This document shows, piece by piece, positions 1,243 through 8,495 of a stretch of 64,000 bases of DNA (position 1 is its first letter; every line of letters starts with the position of its first letter). This DNA is from Pyruvatibacter mobilis (GTDB taxonomy: Bacteria > Pseudomonadota > Alphaproteobacteria > CGMCC-115125). The notes beneath the pieces were generated by a model. The model had not been told where the DNA came from and did not search any database. It saw only the letters and a list, made by a program, of their open reading frames with translations. Location of the stretch: the NCBI RefSeq assembly GCF_012848855.1, contig NZ_CP051630.1, forward strand, positions 1,343,501-1,407,500, read 5' to 3'. A program made the position numbers and the translations under genes.

Positions 1243-2967
1243 ATGAGCGCCAACACCTTTGACAAGTCGAAGCTTCCCAGCCGTCACGTGACGGTCGGCC
1301 CCCAGCGCGCGCCGCATCGCTCCTACTATTATGCGATGGGCCTCTCCCAGGAAGAGATTGACCAGCCGTTTGTGGGCGTAGCCACCTGCTGGAACGAGGC
1401 TGCACCGTGCAACATCGCGCTGCAACGCCAGGCACAGTCGGTGAAGCGGGGCGTGAAAGACGCCGCCGGGACACCGCGCGAGTTCTGCACCATCACGGTG
1501 ACGGACGGCATCGCCATGGGTCACCAGGGCATGAAGTCGTCGCTGGTGAGCCGTGACGTGATCGCGGACTCGGTCGAACTCACCATGCGCGGCCATTGCT
1601 ATGACGCGCTGGTGGGCCTTGCAGGCTGCGACAAGAGCCTGCCCGGCATGATGATGTCGATGCTGCGCCTCAATGTGCCGAGTGTCTTCATGTATGGCGG
1701 CTCGATCATGCCGGGTCAGTTCAAGGGCAAGGATGTAACGGTGCTGGACGTGTTTGAAGGCGTTGGCCAGCACTCCGCCGGCAACATGTCGGATGATGAC
1801 CTGCATGAGCTTGAGTGCGTGGCGTGCCCGAGCGCGGGCGCCTGTGGCGGACAGTTCACGGCCAACACCATGGCCTGCGTGTCCGAAGCCATCGGCCTTG
1901 CCCTGCCGAACTCCGCCGGTGCGCCTGCGCCCTATGAGAGCCGTGACGCCTATGCGGAGGCCTCAGGCCGCGCGGTGATGGAGCTGATCAAGACGGGTCT
2001 GCGCCCGCGCGACATCTGCACGCGCAAGGCGTTCGAGAATGCGGCAACCGTGGTTGCGGCTTCCGGCGGCTCGACTAACGCGGGGCTGCACCTGCCGGCC
2101 ATGGCTGCTGAGGCGGGCATCGACTTCGACCTGATGGAAGTGGCCGAGATCTTCAAGAAGACGCCCTATGTGGCGGACCTCAAGCCGGGCGGCAATTACG
2201 TGGCCAAGGACATGTATGAAGCCGGCGGCGTGCCGATGCTGCTGAAGACGCTTCTCGAAGGCGGCTTCCTGCACGGCGACTGCATCACCGCGACCGGGAA
2301 GACCCTTGCCGAGAACCTCGAGGAAATCGAGTGGAACCCGGAGCAGAAGGTGATCTACCCGGTGTCCAACCCGATCACGCCGACGGGCGGCGTTGTGGGC
2401 CTTCAGGGCTCGCTGGCACCGGACGGGGCCATCGTGAAGGTGGCGGGCCTTGAGAAGCTCCAGTTCTCCGGCCCGGCCCGCTGCTTTGACTGCGAGGAAG
2501 ACGCCTTCGAGGCGGTGGAGAACCGTCAGTACGAAGAAGGTGAAGTACTGGTGATCCGCTACGAGGGCCCGAAGGGCGGCCCGGGCATGCGCGAGATGCT
2601 GTCCACCACCTCGGCGCTGTATGGCCAGGGGATGGGCGACAAGGTGGCGCTGATCACCGACGGGCGCTTCTCCGGCGCGACGCGCGGCTTCTGCATCGGC
2701 CATGTGGGCCCGGAAGCAGCTGAAGGCGGGCCGATCGGCCTGATCGAGGATGGCGACATCATCACCATCGATGCCGAGAAGGGCACGCTGGAACTTGATG
2801 TCTCCGCAGATGTTCTGGAACAGCGGCGTGCCAAATGGCAGCCGCGCAAGACAGATTATAATTCCGGCACATTGTGGAAATACACTCAGCTCGTCGGTCC
2901 GGCCCGCTATGGCGCGCTGACCCATCCGGGCGCAAAGGAAGAAACGCATGTTTATGCGGACATCTAA
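1243..2967 (+). CDS. ilvD: Dihydroxy-acid dehydratase
   Basis: Converts 2,3-dihydroxy-isovalerate and 2,3-dihydroxy-3-methylvalerate to the 2-oxo acids in valine and isoleucine synthesis; cytosolic Fe-S enzyme. 574 residues, the usual length. The family signatures [10 protein letters not shown] (Cys129) and [12 protein letters not shown] (Cys201) are intact, and Cys49 in [10 protein letters not shown] is the probable third cluster ligand. The ATG at 1243 is preceded by GGAGAG about 8 bases upstream and gives the normal family N-terminus; a longer open frame upstream overlaps the previous gene and is not used. The last 20 bases overlap the start of the next gene. Confidence 0.96.
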
Positions 2968-3682
2968 GACCGTTTTGACGCTTCTGGCGGGACTGGCCCT
3001 TGCGGGCCTCCCGGCAGCAGCGTTTGCCGCACCGCTGCAGGACGGTATTGAGCTCTACAGCTCCGGCGACGTTGCAGGCGCAACCGCTGCCTGGGTGAAG
3101 GGCGCGGAAGAGGGCGATGCGACGGCTGCCTATCTCGCCGCCAAGATGTATGAGGGCGGCAAGGGCGTGGCCCGCAATCCGGGCAACATCGTCTACTACA
3201 TGCAGAAGGCGGCCGAGGGTAACCACATCCAGGCGCAGGTGGAGCTTGCGGATTTCTACCGCGCGGGCTTTCCCGATGCGGACCTTGAGAAGGACGCCAA
3301 CCTGGCGCTGGCCTGGTATGAGAAGGCCGCGCTGAAGCAACATGCTGAAGCCCAGATGAAGATCGGCGAAATGCACTATCACGGTGTCGGCGCGGAGCGG
3401 AACCGGTTTGAAGGCATCCGCTGGTATGAGCTCGCCGCTGAGAAGTATTACACGCCGGCGCTCATTCACCTGGCCGGGCTTTACTGGGATGGTGATCCGC
3501 TGCCGCAGGACAAGGCGAAGGCCTATGGCTTCCTGCTACTGGCGCGGCAGGCGGCGACGGACGAGACGCGTCCCGGCGTCGACAAGCTTCTGGAGCTGCG
3601 CGAGCAGCAGATCTCACCGGCACAGCGGGACGCCGGTGTGCGGATCGCCGAGGCTTTCCGGTTCGAACACCCGAAGAAGTAG
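2948..3682 (+). CDS. Exported Sel1-repeat (TPR-like) protein
   Basis: 244 residues. The N-terminus is a signal peptide (basic start, hydrophobic core, AFA-A cleavage site near residue 27), so the protein is probably periplasmic. The rest consists of four to five Sel1-like helical repeats, with hallmarks such as [30 protein letters not shown] and [14 protein letters not shown], forming a scaffold for protein contacts. The start at 2948 has AAGGAA seven bases upstream inside ilvD and overlaps that gene by 20 bases, suggesting translational coupling; a second in-frame ATG lies at 2954. The partner is unknown. Confidence 0.85.
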
Positions 3683-3758
3683 CGCGCAAAAAACGCGCCT
3701 GATCCGGCGCAAGGCGTGGTAGAGAGGGACCAGATCAAATCCCTCCGTGAGCAGCCCC

Positions 3759-4277
3759 ATGGCCTCCACCAAGCGGCCCAGCACTGCATTGCCCAAATCC
3801 GTGTCCCGCAAGCCCCTTATCGGCTGGCGGGAATGGGTCGGGCTGCCGCAGCTTGGCGTTGATCAGATCAAGGCCAAGATTGACACCGGCGCGCGCACCA
3901 GTGCGATCCATGCTTTCAAGATAAGGGCGCTAACCGATGGCGGGGTGCCGTATGTGTCGTTCAGGCTCCACCCCGTGCAGCGGCGGAAGACGCCCGAAAT
4001 CGAATGCGTGGCACCGGTGCATGACCGCCGCCGGGTGCGCAGCTCGAACGGCGAGCAGCAGATGCGCTATGTCATCCGCACACCGATTATTCTGGGCGCC
4101 CACGAAGTGCTGGCAGAAGTCACGCTGGCAGACAGGGATCAGCTTGGTTTCCGCATGCTGCTGGGGCGCGAATTGCTTCGCACACACTTCCTGATTGATC
4201 CGGGACGGTCCTTCCTTGCCGGATCACCCCAAACCGACAGCACGGCCGAACAGATGGCCGCCTTACCCTCCGAGTGA
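3759..4277 (+). CDS. Retropepsin-like protease of the RimK-associated 'ATP-dependent zinc protease' family (RimB-like)
   Basis: 172 residues. The motif [12 protein letters not shown] (Asp42-Thr43-Gly44) is the single-copy D-T-G catalytic motif of this family (PF05618/COG4067), which adopts a dimeric aspartyl-protease fold despite its zinc-protease name. The second hallmark [12 protein letters not shown] follows near the C-terminus. It lies 13 bases before rimK, and family members are very often paired with RimK-type ligases, where they are thought to process or counteract the added amino acids. The start is uncertain: ATG 3759 gives a normal length, and GTG 3747 is also in frame; neither has a strong ribosome site. 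Confidence 0.85.
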
Positions 4278-4290
4278 AAGTCTCAATCGC

Positions 4291-5220
4291 ATGAAGATCG
4301 CTCTTCTGTGCCGGAACGCCGACCTCTATTCCCATCAGCGCCTGGTGGGGGCCGCCCAGGAACGGGGGCACGAGATCGACGTCATCAATCATCTGCGCTG
4401 CTATATCGACATCGCGTCGAGCGACCCAGAAATCCACTATGACGGGATATCTCTGAAGGGCTATGACGCGGTCATTCCGCGTATCGGCGCGTCGGTGACG
4501 TTTTTCGGGACCGCCGTGCTGCGCCAGTTCGAGATGATGGGCGTCTATCCGCTGAACGAGAGCGTGGCCATTACCCGCGCACGGGACAAGCTGCGCAGCC
4601 TTCAGCTGCTGCAGCGCGACGGGGTGGGGTTGCCCAACACCGTCTTTGCGCACCGGACGTCGGAAGCAACCGAGATCCTGAAACTCGCCGGCGGCGCACC
4701 GGTGGTGATCAAGCTGCTGGAGGGTACGCAGGGGATCGGGGTGGTGCTGGGCGAAACCACCAAGGCGGCGGAAAGCATCATCCAGGCATTCGGTGGCGTG
4801 CGGACCAATATCCTGGTTCAGCAATTCGTCAAGGAAGCCAATGGCGAGGATCTGCGGTGCTTCGTGGTCGGCAACAAGGTGGTGGCCGCCATGCTGCGCA
4901 AGGGCAAGGAGGGCGACTTCCGCTCCAACCTCCATCGGGGCGGCACCGCCAGCGTGGTGAAGATCTCACCGAAGGAGCGGGCCACAGCGATCAAGGCGGC
5001 GAAGGCCATGGGCCTCAATGTGTGCGGCGTGGACATGCTGCGGTCCAATGAGGGGCCGGTGGTGATGGAGGTCAACTCCTCGCCGGGTCTTCAGGGAATT
5101 GAAACAGCTACCGGCGTAGACGTTGCCGGTCAGATCATTCAGTTTATCGAAAAAAATGCCCAGCCAGGCAAAACGCACACCAAGACACCAAAGAAGCGGA
5201 GCGTCCCGAAGCGTGACTAG
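4291..5220 (+). CDS. rimK: RimK-type ATP-grasp amino-acid ligase
   Basis: 309 residues, matching the RimK family, whose E. coli member adds glutamates to the C-terminus of ribosomal protein S6 and can make poly-glutamate. The ATP-grasp core is clear: [15 protein letters not shown] (nucleotide-binding loop), [19 protein letters not shown], and the metal-binding [13 protein letters not shown] near the C-terminus. The N-terminal part ([12 protein letters not shown]) is the preATP-grasp domain. The last 20 or so residues are Lys/Thr-rich and extend past the core. It lies between a RimB-like protease and an M14 deacylase, in a predicted amidoligase operon. Whether the target is S6, another protein or a free metabolite is not shown by the sequence. 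Confidence 0.9.
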
Positions 5221-6280
5221 GAAGCAACCGGCGCGCGCCCCGCTGGATATCGGCGGCAAACTCATCGCGCCGGGAACGCGGCAGGTGGTGGATCTGCCGC
5301 TCAGCATGATGTCAGATCACACACCGGCCAGCCTGTCGCTGCAGGTGATCCATGGCCGCCGAGAGGGCCCGACAGTCTTCGTGTCGGCAGCGATCCATGG
5401 CGACGAGATTATCGGCGTGGAGATCGTCCGGCGGCTGATCCGCGCACCAGCGCTGCGGCGGATGGCCGGTACACTGTTGCTGATCCCGATCGTCAATACG
5501 TTTGGCTTCATCAATCACAGCCGCTACCTGCCGGACCGGCGCGACCTCAACCGGTCGTTTCCCGGCAGTGCTGGCGGATCGCTGGCCGCCCGGCTTGCGC
5601 ATCTGTTCACCAATGAAGTTCTGGCCCGCAGCGACGTGGGGATCGATTTGCATTCAGCGGCAGTCAACCGGATCAACCTGCCGCAAATCCGGGTGGATAC
5701 GAGCAACAAGCGCGCGCTGGCGCTGGCTCGCGCTTTTGCGCCGCCGGTGATCGTCAATTCCAATCTGCGCGACGGCTCACTGCGCGAGGCTGCGTCAGAG
5801 CGTAATATCCCGGTCATGGTGTTCGAGGCAGGCGAGGGCCTGCGCTTTGACGAGACGGCGATCCGGATCGGCGTCAAGGGCGTGCTCAATGTGCTGCGGG
5901 AATTGGGCATGATCACCGCCCGCAAGAGCAGTGCCGCGGCACACAAGCCCGCGCCGCAGGCTGCTGTCGCCACGCGGACATTCTGGGTGCGTGCCGCCGA
6001 GGGCGGTGTCGTGCGGACGCATTGCACCATCGGCCAGTTCGTGAAGAAGGGGGCGCTGCTGGGTGTTGTGTCCGACCCGTTCGGGGAGCGGGACACCGAC
6101 ATTCTCTCACCGCATACGGGGCTGATCATCGGGCGCAGCAACCTGCCGATCGTCAACGAGGGCGACGCGCTGGTGCATATCGCCTCCGTGCCCCGCGCCG
6201 CGGCAGCCCGCGCGGATCTCGACACGCTCGAGGAATCCTTCGAGGGTGACCCACTGTTTGACGAGGACGAGATCCTCTAG
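5213..6280 (+). CDS. M14 succinylglutamate desuccinylase/aspartoacylase-family deacylase
   Basis: 355 residues. Zinc-peptidase motifs are present: HGDE (His62, Glu65), [11 protein letters not shown], and DLHS (His147), followed by a probable catalytic Glu in VFEAGEG near residue 205. The C-terminal 70 residues ([13 protein letters not shown] to VIIGRSN-like region) resemble the small beta-barrel 'lid' of AstE/AspA proteins. This family removes acyl groups from amino acids. GTG 5213 is chosen because it overlaps rimK by 8 bases and removes an unrelated N-terminal extension that is only rimK read out of frame. Its coupling to rimK suggests it hydrolyses a product of the ligase. Confidence 0.85.
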
Positions 6281-6306
6281 GGCTGCCCTGCCCGGCAGCT
6301 GTGCCG

Positions 6307-6675
6307 TCATTCCACCACCGGGCGTTCCCGCACAAAGGTGAGGGAGGATCGCTTGAGGTCGATGAACTTGCGTTCATCTTCCAACAGGGCCTTGCCAGCT
6401 GCCAGCGCGTCCGGTTCGCTCATGGCGGCCCGCAGATCGTCCTCGCTGGCCCACCACAGCTCTGCAAATCCGTCATAGCGCGGCTGGGCGGCGCGCGAGG
6501 CCTGCATGGCGGCGTCGAACTCATGCTCCAGACCGTGGGACTGGACATAGCGCGCGATGCGCAGGGCGGGGGCGTGCTGCTTCACCAGCGGCGCGTGGCT
6601 GGTCCACCAATAGTCACGGAAAGCCTCGGTGCTGAGATGGGGCAGCCGGTGGAGGCAGAAGACGAGCTTGATCAA
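6307..6675 (-). CDS. EthD-domain protein
   Basis: 122 residues from a TTG start at 6675, chosen because it has AAGGAA/AGGA purines just upstream and yields the normal EthD start (IKLVFCLHRLP). The Pro-rich sequence further upstream in the same frame looks non-coding. Conserved features are FRDYWWTSHAPLV and YDGFAELWWAS, typical of the dimeric alpha/beta-barrel EthD family, which occurs near ether-degradation, polyketide and stress genes. The fold is recognisable; the substrate is unknown. It is convergent with the deacylase gene and stands alone. Confidence 0.78.
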   Translation of the reverse strand: MIKLVFCLHRLPHLSTEAFRDYWWTSHAPLVKQHAPALRIARYVQSHGLEHEFDAAMQASRAAQPRYDGFAELWWASEDDLRAAMSEPDALAAGKALLEDERKFIDLKRSSLTFVRERPVVE

Positions 6676-6917
6676 TTTTCCTGTTTCCTTCTCGGTACTT
6701 ATAGCCGGGTGTTTTTGGCCCGCTGGTTCGGCACGCTGGCGGGGATGACCAACAGTCACCGCCGGGCGGGGTGCAGGCAAGGTATCGGGCAGGGCGGCGG
6801 GTCATGTGTGCTGCCCATCTTTTACCTTGTTTGTCTGTAGCCATGGGAGGGGTCACGGTCCTAAGCTAGCTTCGACGGCGGGGCACTGGCTCCTGTCGGC
6901 AGTTGGGGACAAACAGA

Positions 6918-8495
6918 ATGCGCGTCGCGGTCGGAGGCTTCCAGCACGAGACGAACACCTTCGCTTCCCAGAAGGCGGATCTGGACGCGTTTCTGCAGCC
7001 GGACGCCTGGCCGGCGCTGCAGGGCGGTGACGGCCTGCTGACGACTTTCGCGCCGTCGGATGACGGCAGCGCCTCGATGAACATCCCCATTGCCGGGTTT
7101 CTTGCCCAGGCCCGCAAATCGGGCATGACGCCGGTGCCGCTCGTCTGGGCATCGGCCACCCCGTCGGCCCATGTCACGAGCAGCGCGTTCGGCCATATCG
7201 GCGGCATGCTGATCGAGGAACTGGAGCGCGCGCTGCGCGACGGGCCACTGGACGCCATCTATCTCGACCTGCACGGCGCCATGGTGACCGAAGACCAGGA
7301 GGACGGAGAAGGCGACCTGCTGGAATGGGTGCGGAACGTGGTGCGCGGCCAGGTGCCGATCATCGCGTCGCTTGACCTGCATGCCAACGTGACCGCGAAG
7401 ATGATGCGCAATGCCGACATCCTCGTGGCCTACCGCACCTATCCGCATGTGGACATGGCGGACACAGGCGCGCGCGCGGCCCGCATCACGGATCAGATCA
7501 TCCGGTCATCGGCGCGGCCGGCCAAGGCCTTCCGCAAGCTGAATTTCCTGGTGCCGCTTACGGCGCAGTGCACGATGCTGGACCCGGCGGGGCTTATTTA
7601 CGCTGATGTGGCGGCGCTTGAAGCTTTGAAGCAGGCGCCGGACGACGCGCAGGAAACCCCTATCCTGTCAGCTTCCGCCACCATGGGTTTTCCGCCCGCG
7701 GACATCGCGGAATGCGGCCCGGCTGTTTTTGCCTATGCGGATACGCAGGAAGCCGCCGACGAAGCCGTGACGCGGCTGGCGGAAACGTTCCGCGAGTTCG
7801 AGCGCGGGTTCCGGCAGAAGCTGTGGGCACCGGAAGAGGCCGTGGCCTATGGCGAGGCCGCGAGTGCCGGAGACCGGCGGCAGGGCCCGCTGATCCTTGC
7901 GGACACGCAGGACAATCCCGGCGCGGGCGGCAACGGCGACACGGTCGGTTTGCTCCGCTCACTGATTACCGGAGCTGAAAGCGCTATATGCGGGGTCATG
8001 TTTGATCCTGCGTCCGTGGCTGCGGCCTGGGAGGCCGGGGAGGGCGGCCATGTGGCATTGACCCTCGGCGCGTGGACCGGCGGGGCGTCTGAAAGCCCGG
8101 TCAAGGGCGTGTTCGAAGTACTCAGGCTGCATGACGGCGAGATCGATGCACCGGGCGCATTCTATCGCGGCGCGCGGCTGTCTCTTGGCCGCTCGGTCCT
8201 GCTGCGCATCAATGACGTGCGCATCGTGGTGGCGAGCCAGAAAGTCCAGACGGCTGACCGGGCAATGTTCCGCGCCTTCGGCATCGCGCCGGAGAAAGAG
8301 AACATCGTAGCGCTCAAGAGCTCCGTGCATTTCAGGGCGGACTTCCAGGCAATTGCGCGCGACGTGCTGGTTGTCGCGAGCCCGGGGCCGAACCCGGCCA
8401 ACCATGAAGAGCTGCCCTATAAGCGCCTGCGCAGCGGCGTGCGGCTCATGCCCATGGGACCTGCGTTTCAGCGCTCCCGCAAGCCATTGAAATAG
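6918..8495 (+). CDS. M81-family metallopeptidase, MlrC-like
   Basis: 525 residues, slightly over the family norm. The MlrC-type domain is clear: an N-terminal GGFQHETNTF, then LDLHGAMVTE and SLDLHANVT with candidate zinc residues, and a C-terminal domain ending in RRLRSGVRLMPMG-like sequence. MlrC of sphingomonads hydrolyses linearised microcystin and is the founder; most homologues have no known substrate and probably act on small peptides or amides. The ATG at 6918 is preferred to a TTG 15 bases earlier. The 3' end overlaps the convergent GFA gene by 28 bases. Confidence 0.85.
   Translation: MRVAVGGFQHETNTFASQKADLDAFLQPDAWPALQGGDGLLTTFAPSDDGSASMNIPIAGFLAQARKSGMTPVPLVWASATPSAHVTSSAFGHIGGMLIEELERALRDGPLDAIYLDLHGAMVTEDQEDGEGDLLEWVRNVVRGQVPIIASLDLHANVTAKMMRNADILVAYRTYPHVDMADTGARAARITDQIIRSSARPAKAFRKLNFLVPLTAQCTMLDPAGLIYADVAALEALKQAPDDAQETPILSASATMGFPPADIAECGPAVFAYADTQEAADEAVTRLAETFREFERGFRQKLWAPEEAVAYGEAASAGDRRQGPLILADTQDNPGAGGNGDTVGLLRSLITGAESAICGVMFDPASVAAAWEAGEGGHVALTLGAWTGGASESPVKGVFEVLRLHDGEIDAPGAFYRGARLSLGRSVLLRINDVRIVVASQKVQTADRAMFRAFGIAPEKENIVALKSSVHFRADFQAIARDVLVVASPGPNPANHEELPYKRLRSGVRLMPMGPAFQRSRKPLK

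Follow-up and report, generated by a model that had tools for sequence, protein, structure and literature searches.

A 64,000-nucleotide stretch of the genome of the alphaproteobacterium Pyruvatibacter mobilis (contig NZ_CP051630.1, positions 1,343,501 to 1,407,500 of the forward strand; hereafter the window) encodes, at positions 3759-6280, a triad comprising a RimB-like retropepsin-type aspartic peptidase, the ATP-grasp ligase RimK and a zinc hydrolase of the M14 AstE/AspA type. We propose that these three enzymes constitute a cycle that makes, cuts and finishes off poly-glutamate and that is tied to osmotic and Mg2+ balance, a reading that we consider evenly poised between right and wrong. 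The RimB-RimK pair is known; what is new here is the third enzyme, found only together with RimK in our genome samples, and an ion-channel context of the triad. The activities ascribed to RimK and RimB come from other organisms, and the present evidence consists of conservation, co-occurrence, kept active sites and, in part of the relatives, linkage to ion genes.

The three genes are co-directional on the plus strand and uninterrupted. The peptidase gene (3759..4277; 172 amino acids, with a second possible start at a GTG at 3747) is separated by 13 bases from rimK (4291..5220; 309 amino acids), the stop of which overlaps by 8 bases (5213..5220) with the start of the GTG-initiated hydrolase gene (5213..6280; 355 amino acids), an arrangement that makes translational coupling likely. 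In a scan of positions 2900-6900, terminator-like sites on the plus strand were absent between the three genes, and promoter-like sites were absent altogether; the lack of internal terminators is compatible with a single transcript, short of proof. Base composition is even throughout the triad. The first-pass annotation, made from the letters of the window, had described this spacing and the three enzyme types, which the open reading frames (ORFs) and their Pfam and NCBIfam matches bear out, and had treated the genes as one unit, one test of which is whether the triad is found in other genomes.

The triad does recur as a unit. A pattern scan with the hydrolase over one genome per species (84,980 species) yielded 218 relatives, and among the best 80, which were kept, 66 have a RimB-like protease and RimK encoded upstream of the hydrolase in the same order as in the window, which places the triad far beyond chance. 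In these 66 full triads RimK is preceded by a gap of -4 to 98 bases and the hydrolase match by one of -26 to 104 bases. Among the remaining loci, six have RimK only (three at contig edges) and eight have neither gene (one at a contig edge). The other seven of these eight loci all come from genomes with a RimK above the cut-off elsewhere, six times as a fused RimB-RimK frame, a hybrid that has been described (PMC11957791). At one further locus (L084), the hydrolase is preceded by a partial rimK only (a 171-amino-acid frame), in a genome where no RimK above the cut-off was found. Two other genomes (G125 and G148; loci L141 and L142) have a second, lower-scoring rimK-like match, with a fused RimB-RimK frame in L141 and a partial one in L142.

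The hydrolase tracks RimK across genomes as well. In a class sample of 115 genomes, in which each listed genome carries a different family label, RimK is present in 14 and the hydrolase clade, delimited at a score of at least 418 bits (the next best being 159), in nine, all of them within the 14 (hypergeometric 3e-10); in three of the nine the hydrolase and RimK are on separate contigs. A phylum sample of 249 genomes contains the hydrolase in 63, RimK in 89 and a PF05618 protease in 84, the last count also taking in RloA-type proteases. RimK is found in all 63 hydrolase genomes (Fisher's p=2e-38, relatedness ignored) and the PF05618 protease in 61 of them, while the hydrolase adjoins RimK in 42 of the 63 and not in the other 21. 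Within these samples the dependence is thus one-way: the hydrolase goes with RimK, and RimK does not need the hydrolase. It might be supposed that ancient operon inheritance alone ties the hydrolase to rimBK, with no function shared between them, as the 26 of 89 RimK genomes that manage without it would allow. However, RimK co-occurs with the hydrolase even where the two are unlinked (the 21 phylum-sample genomes and the seven loci among the best 80), and on two Vibrio plasmids the gene order is permuted to RimK-AstE-RimB; we regard such a passenger status as highly improbable.

The protease matches PF05618 (labelled 'Zn_protease'; E=2.6e-33) and has 9g59, 9g58 and 2pma as structure relatives. 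Its best NCBIfam model is RimB (NF052261), at 114.8 bits, below the equivalog cut-off of 200, and we therefore name it RimB-like rather than RimB. Two marks of RimB are present, namely the adjoining rimK and a DTG active site at residues 42-44 (codons at 3882..3890, plus strand), where the D and G are identical in 95 of 95 sequences and the T in 83. The basic residues R103, R126 and R137 are likewise identical in 95 sequences, and the protease scores 57 bits against the model of RloA, in which a poly-Glu channel is lined by basic residues (PMC12239564). Judged from its sequence, it is predicted to be an endopeptidase that cuts poly-Glu. The ligase in turn is RimK by sequence: it matches the Pfam RimK domain (PF08443; E=6.9e-67) and the Rimk_N domain, and scores 442 bits against the NCBIfam S6--L-glutamate ligase model (PRK10446.1 / NF007764), over the curated cut-off of 331, and 76 bits against the CphA model. 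Its solved homologues are 7qyr and 7qys ('probable alpha-L-glutamate ligase'), 5zct and 4iwx. Ribosomal protein S6, the AstE/AspA domain and the protease family each have one match in the whole genome (3.33 Mb, one contig), where two weaker RimK-domain matches were found besides that of the triad.

The third enzyme combines an AstE_AspA_cat domain (PF24827; E=2.2e-42, 145 bits against a gathering cut-off of 25) with a C-terminal barrel. It stays below the equivalog cut-offs of the named deacylases, with 87.7 versus 402.7 bits for DoeB/EutE (TIGR02994), 28 versus 180 bits for aspartoacylase (NF002601) and 20 versus 305.65 bits for the succinylglutamate desuccinylase AstE (TIGR03242), and a place in ectoine, arginine or aspartate catabolism was rejected on account of these wide margins. 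H62, E65, H147 and E205, to which we assign zinc-binding and catalytic roles by presumed analogy with M14 enzymes, are identical throughout the alignment (123 of 123 sequences), the window copy included. So are Arg153, Arg160 and Arg191 in the 123 clade sequences; of the nine other bacterial paralogues compared, none has all three, a count taken apart from a Legionella lytica plasmid homologue and two haloarchaeal plasmid homologues, and both haloarchaeal proteins keep them. Such arginines might be expected where the substrate is acidic. An AlphaFold2 model of the hydrolase (pLDDT, the predicted local distance difference test, 84; pTM, the predicted template modelling score, 0.87) has, among Foldseek's top 1000 fold neighbours, the same fold as CphZ (8ein_A; Z 25.7 over 297 residues, root-mean-square deviation 3.5, 19% identity), and the deglutamylase CCP5 (8v3p) matches it at Z 16.1. 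M14/AstE-annotated proteins encoded beside CphA1 and cyanophycinase genes are reported to be beta-Asp-Arg dipeptidases (PMC10206079).

The hydrolase ends in a strongly conserved acidic tail (codons at 6248..6277, plus strand), with 78 of 117 sequences ending in DPLF plus at most six residues. In most relatives from the pattern scan (L063, L085, L171 and L183 among the loci concerned), including some that do not adjoin rimK, it reads DPLFDEDEI plus one hydrophobic residue, and it might serve as a peptide for docking to RimK or RimB. The Legionella lytica plasmid homologue (L320:5986-7011; 34% identity) adjoins a gene for a major facilitator superfamily transporter and has lost the aligned H62, N113, R114, H147 and E205 (H62K, N113E, H147Q, E205Q), substitutions that make it a likely pseudo-enzyme. 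The stretch examined around it has no annotated rimK, and neither do those examined around the two haloarchaeal homologues, the second of which is cut off where the record ends.

Since the Pfam domain of the hydrolase and its best folds among the matches listed are of the AstE/AspA/DoeB kind, RimK might be thought to join glutamate and a small acceptor, an acyl compound or an amino acid, with the M14 enzyme as a true deacylase of a metabolite or coenzyme tail. RIMKLA, for instance, makes N-acetylaspartylglutamate. Elsewhere RimK homologues serve coenzyme biosynthesis (PMC11957791), and the coenzyme methylofuran carries polyglutamate (PMC8141765). Yet what the hydrolase shares with DoeB, AspA and AstE is the fold and the M14 active-site motifs, whereas its equivalog scores are far too low and its arginine set is specific to its own clade. 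The gene neighbourhoods do not favour such a pathway either: among the 25 families listed per neighbour scan (see below) no biosynthetic pathway is prominent, with molybdopterin dehydrogenase domains in 5 of 98 alphaproteobacterial neighbours, and 61 of 63 hydrolase genomes have a PF05618 protease. We judge a small-molecule product of this sort decidedly unlikely.

The poly-glutamate cycle that we prefer builds on the biochemistry of Pseudomonas fluorescens, where poly-alpha-L-glutamate, whether free or attached to S6, is made by RimK and cut by RimB (PMC11957791). Pseudomonas RimB, a retropepsin, cuts poly-Glu that contains about 5-6 contiguous Glu and raises RimK activity about fourfold, and in vitro the pair produces free poly-alpha-Glu in chains as long as 28-36 residues (PMC11957791). 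As RimB needs about 5-6 contiguous Glu, short stubs are left. In the triad, RimK would spend ATP on building poly-alpha-L-glutamate, either unattached or on an acceptor; chains of about five or more Glu would be cut by the RimB-like retropepsin, which might, as in Pseudomonas, stimulate RimK as well; and the M14 enzyme, a predicted oligo-glutamate exo- or dipeptidase, would by analogy finish the job, freeing glutamate from the short oligo-Glu stubs beyond the reach of RimB. Polymerising glutamate would leave fewer osmotically active anions and provide a Mg2+-binding polyanion, and depolymerising it would supply free glutamate again. We infer both this direction of the physiology and its validity in P. 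mobilis, whose own triad lacks an ion gene. The first-pass annotation had envisaged a make-trim-recycle logic acting on an unknown product: the logic is plausible, and the product was wrongly called unknown for two of the three enzymes, RimK and RimB being the makers and cutters of poly-alpha-L-glutamate in P. fluorescens (PMC11957791). Its remark that the triad lacks an assigned substrate holds for the trio as a whole.

Such a layout would be like that of cyanophycin turnover, which employs a RimK-like ATP-grasp synthetase (CphA) as polymerase, an endopeptidase (cyanophycinase) and an M14/AstE-like dipeptide hydrolase (CphZ). However, the cyanophycin polymer is Asp-Arg, the triad shows no sign of Arg or isoaspartyl chemistry, and the cyanophycin endopeptidase belongs to another family than the triad protease. 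The tubulin TTLL ligases and CCP deglutamylases likewise pair writers with M14 enzymes that erase; here the substrate is eukaryotic, the TTLL enzymes are of another ligase family than RimK, and the likeness is one of analogy only. Closer at hand, in the RimABK/RimBK systems of Pseudomonas a single operon encodes RimK next to a retropepsin of the RimB type, and poly-alpha-Glu is made and cut (PMC4741518, PMC11957791, PMC10092738; see also PMC7343187). The window triad differs from these in adding the M14 enzyme, in an S6 without terminal Glu and, in part of its relatives, in Mg2+-transporter and MscS neighbours; the terms 'desuccinylase' and 'aspartoacylase' are absent from the main text of PMC10092738 and PMC4741518, and 'succinylglutamate' and 'aspartoacylase' from that of PMC11957791. 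RloABC of P. aeruginosa likewise couples a RimB-like retropepsin and an ATP-grasp protein with poly-Glu cleavage and a hypo-osmotic phenotype, but RloA is secreted and paired with RloB, an inactive transglutaminase-like membrane protein, and the operon as described is without an M14 enzyme (PMC12239564).

A different use of the same chemistry would have RimK polyglutamylate S6 or another ribosomal protein, RimB shorten the tail and the M14 enzyme act as a second eraser, like CCP on tubulin; linkage to Mg2+ transporters would then reflect the Mg2+ need of the ribosome. That the triad RimK exceeds the S6-ligase cut-off, that CCP5 has the M14 fold and that in Pseudomonas S6 has been demonstrated to be the substrate (PMC10092738, PMC11957791, PMC4741518) are all in line with this, and the S6 proteins themselves allow a comparison. 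As the first-pass annotation had remarked, no rpsF lies nearby: the sole S6 match of the genome is at C1:1762730, 355 kb beyond the end of the window at 1407500, and this S6 ends in ...KKEGADA, with no terminal Glu acceptor. In 30 hydrolase genomes selected among those of the 80 loci, S6 terminates in R in 11, E in 7, N in 5, S in 3, A in 3 and F in 1, that is, other than Glu in 23, with many of the tails very basic (RRERN, RRERR). A second set of 30 RimK genomes, 29 of which have an S6 match, shows terminal Glu about equally often with the hydrolase (6 of 18) and without it (3 of 11), and Asp in three more of the 18 hydrolase genomes. Because the tails mostly lack a terminal Glu, the case for S6 as the general substrate is weakened; it is weakened rather than excluded because some tails end in Asp and the comparison was confined to RimK genomes. 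On these sequences S6 is doubtful as a shared substrate and is not supported as that of the triad ligase, and we rate the ribosomal alternative as possible, if on the unlikely side.

The osmotic and Mg2+ component of the proposed poly-glutamate cycle comes from the neighbours of the triad in other genomes. Pfam scans of neighbouring ORFs, made without preselected families and before any count of ion genes, covered 236 of 292 ORFs (the first list up to 150 of 166), with some triad-overlapping, contig-edge and outermost ORFs left out by eye. In a set of 76 neighbours the top families are MscS (5), CorA (4), response regulators (4) and MgtE (3); in a set of 62 they are GGDEF and hydrolase folds (3 each), with 2 MscS; and in an alphaproteobacterial set of 98 they are CBS (8), MgtE (6) and molybdopterin dehydrogenase domains (5), with 2 CNNM. 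A subsequent count with hidden Markov models (HMMs) for MgtE, CorA, CNNM and MscS, the triad-derived queries of which are biased, gave 44 ion genes in 1,088 kb, at 29 of 100 hydrolase loci, versus 5 in 800 kb, at 4 of 40 control regions from hydrolase-bearing genomes (p=9e-7; 3e-4 with alphaproteobacteria only, 1e-3 with other classes only), p values that are optimistic because related loci are not independent and because the queries came from triad neighbourhoods. The 100 loci are the best 80 (66 full triads) plus 20 picked from the 42 adjacent phylum-sample loci, and four plasmid loci that enter the other ion-gene counts stand outside this test. The controls were placed at round coordinates, 20 in 13 genomes of other classes and 20 in nine genomes of the best-80 loci. 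The division into alphaproteobacteria and other classes follows the titles of named relatives and a kinship assignment. In triads and controls alike the HMM counts include CBS-domain cross-hits (e.g. a second 'MgtE' in L007, L010 and L012).

Over 108 loci in all, an ion gene is present in 34, and in 13 the arrangement is operon-like, with the ion gene on the triad strand and within 250 bases of the triad or of the next ion gene. We observed MgtE-RimB-RimK-AstE (L045, L072, L080), MscS-RimB-RimK-AstE (L275), CorA-MscS-RimB-RimK-AstE (L257), CorA-MgtE-RimK-AstE (L264), RimK-AstE-RimB-MscS-CorA (L272), RimK-AstE-RimB-MscS (Vibrio nigripulchritudo) and, as the fullest form, RimK-AstE-RimB-MgtE-CorA-MscS (Vibrio europaeus), where RimB and MgtE overlap by 8 bases. 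That these arrangements differ argues for selection over one inherited accident. On large Salinivibrio replicons (plasmid loci L253, L319 and L321) the triad occurs together with MscS and MgtE; a VCBS-domain gene as long as about 17 kb lies alongside, and msrB and a gene for a GGDEF protein or diguanylate cyclase come next. No description of a linkage between the triad and ion genes was found in titles or abstract openings among the matches listed, in a search lying mostly outside the subscription literature.

Published data connect rimK with salinity. The identifier K05844 we take to be rimK. In brackish or lower-salinity relatives, glutamate-modifying genes including K05844 are commoner and so, separately, are MscS-type channel and Mg2+ uptake systems (PMC10219603). 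In Photobacterium damselae subsp. damselae at 1% versus 3% NaCl, rimK is 52-fold and mgtE 5.35-fold up and kanamycin tolerance is lower; the neighbours of rimK are not named in the main text (PMC10308900). RimK overexpression in P. fluorescens brings higher antibiotic sensitivity in a RimB-dependent manner (PMC11957791), with which the kanamycin effect at low salt is consistent without being proof. A stronger form of our proposal, which we think unlikely, is that some bacteria, several of them marine, possess a module devoted to osmotic and Mg2+ balance, most complete as rimK-astE-rimB-mgtE-corA-mscS, with the reversible polymerisation of glutamate, one of the main anions inside the cell, at its centre. 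When salinity drops, RimK would condense glutamate into an osmotically quiet, Mg2+-binding polymer while MscS vents solutes and MgtE and CorA import Mg2+; when it rises, RimB and the M14 enzyme would return the polymer to free glutamate.

Several observations weigh against a poly-glutamate cycle coupled to ion balance. No MgtE, CorA, CNNM or MscS gene was detected by tblastn or HMM in the 64-kb window itself, and for 71 of the 100 loci there is none in the stretch examined. Counted by locus, the set from other classes alone stands at 8 of 20 versus 2 of 20 (p=0.03). An ion gene was found by tblastn at none of seven unlinked hydrolase loci and none of 12 RimK loci that are unlinked or hydrolase-lacking, the HMM count finding one among these 19. 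The hydrolase is missing from 26 of the 89 RimK genomes, including four of six with fused RimB-RimK, and the Pseudomonas rim operons are described without an M14 hydrolase (PMC10092738); RimK therefore works without it. As for the enzyme, loop 96-111, part of the active-site region, is poorly modelled (pLDDT <50), the top folds by Z among the matches listed are 3cdx, an unassigned AstE/AspA protein (31.5), and the deacylase DoeB (6twm, 30.9), a bacterial CCP showed little cleavage of a Glu test substrate (PMC3940198), and a published assay of a triad-type hydrolase was not found in the literature. Free poly-Glu, moreover, is scarce in wild-type P. fluorescens (PMC11957791).

A small conserved ORF of about 93 amino acids (core FGGK..GRYRI..KLVR..A..RRLYEDDI) accompanies 29 of the 105 triad-type loci tested (for instance L009:3280-3558, L020:3250-3528 and L061:3181-3510). 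In 20 of them the ORF shares the strand of rimB and immediately precedes it (within 130 bases); in eight it is on the opposite strand at 175-1512 bases, and in L033 it is 3.3 kb away. There is no Pfam match for the L009 copy and no credible NCBIfam match for four copies; a model (pLDDT 86.5) gave insignificant fold matches, some of them to winged-helix proteins. No copy was detected within the first 12 kb of the window. In the window, the triad is flanked by a Sel1-repeat gene, an EthD-type gene, an IlvD-like frame (seen by eye) and, downstream, a gene for an M81 metallopeptidase of the MlrC type (6903-8495; 172.7 bits, with an NCBIfam exception cut-off of 999), which is probably unrelated.

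RimK has for decades been read as a ribosome modifier of unclear purpose. The triad offers a testable alternative, namely reversible glutamate polymerisation within salt and magnesium homeostasis. Were the dedicated osmotic and Mg2+ module to exist, the glutamylation of S6 seen in E. coli and Pseudomonas would be a specialised offshoot of it. If the proposed cycle is real, it would be another bacterial amino-acid polymer cycle beside that of cyanophycin, and would give a function to the proteins annotated as 'succinylglutamate desuccinylase/aspartoacylase family' in these loci.

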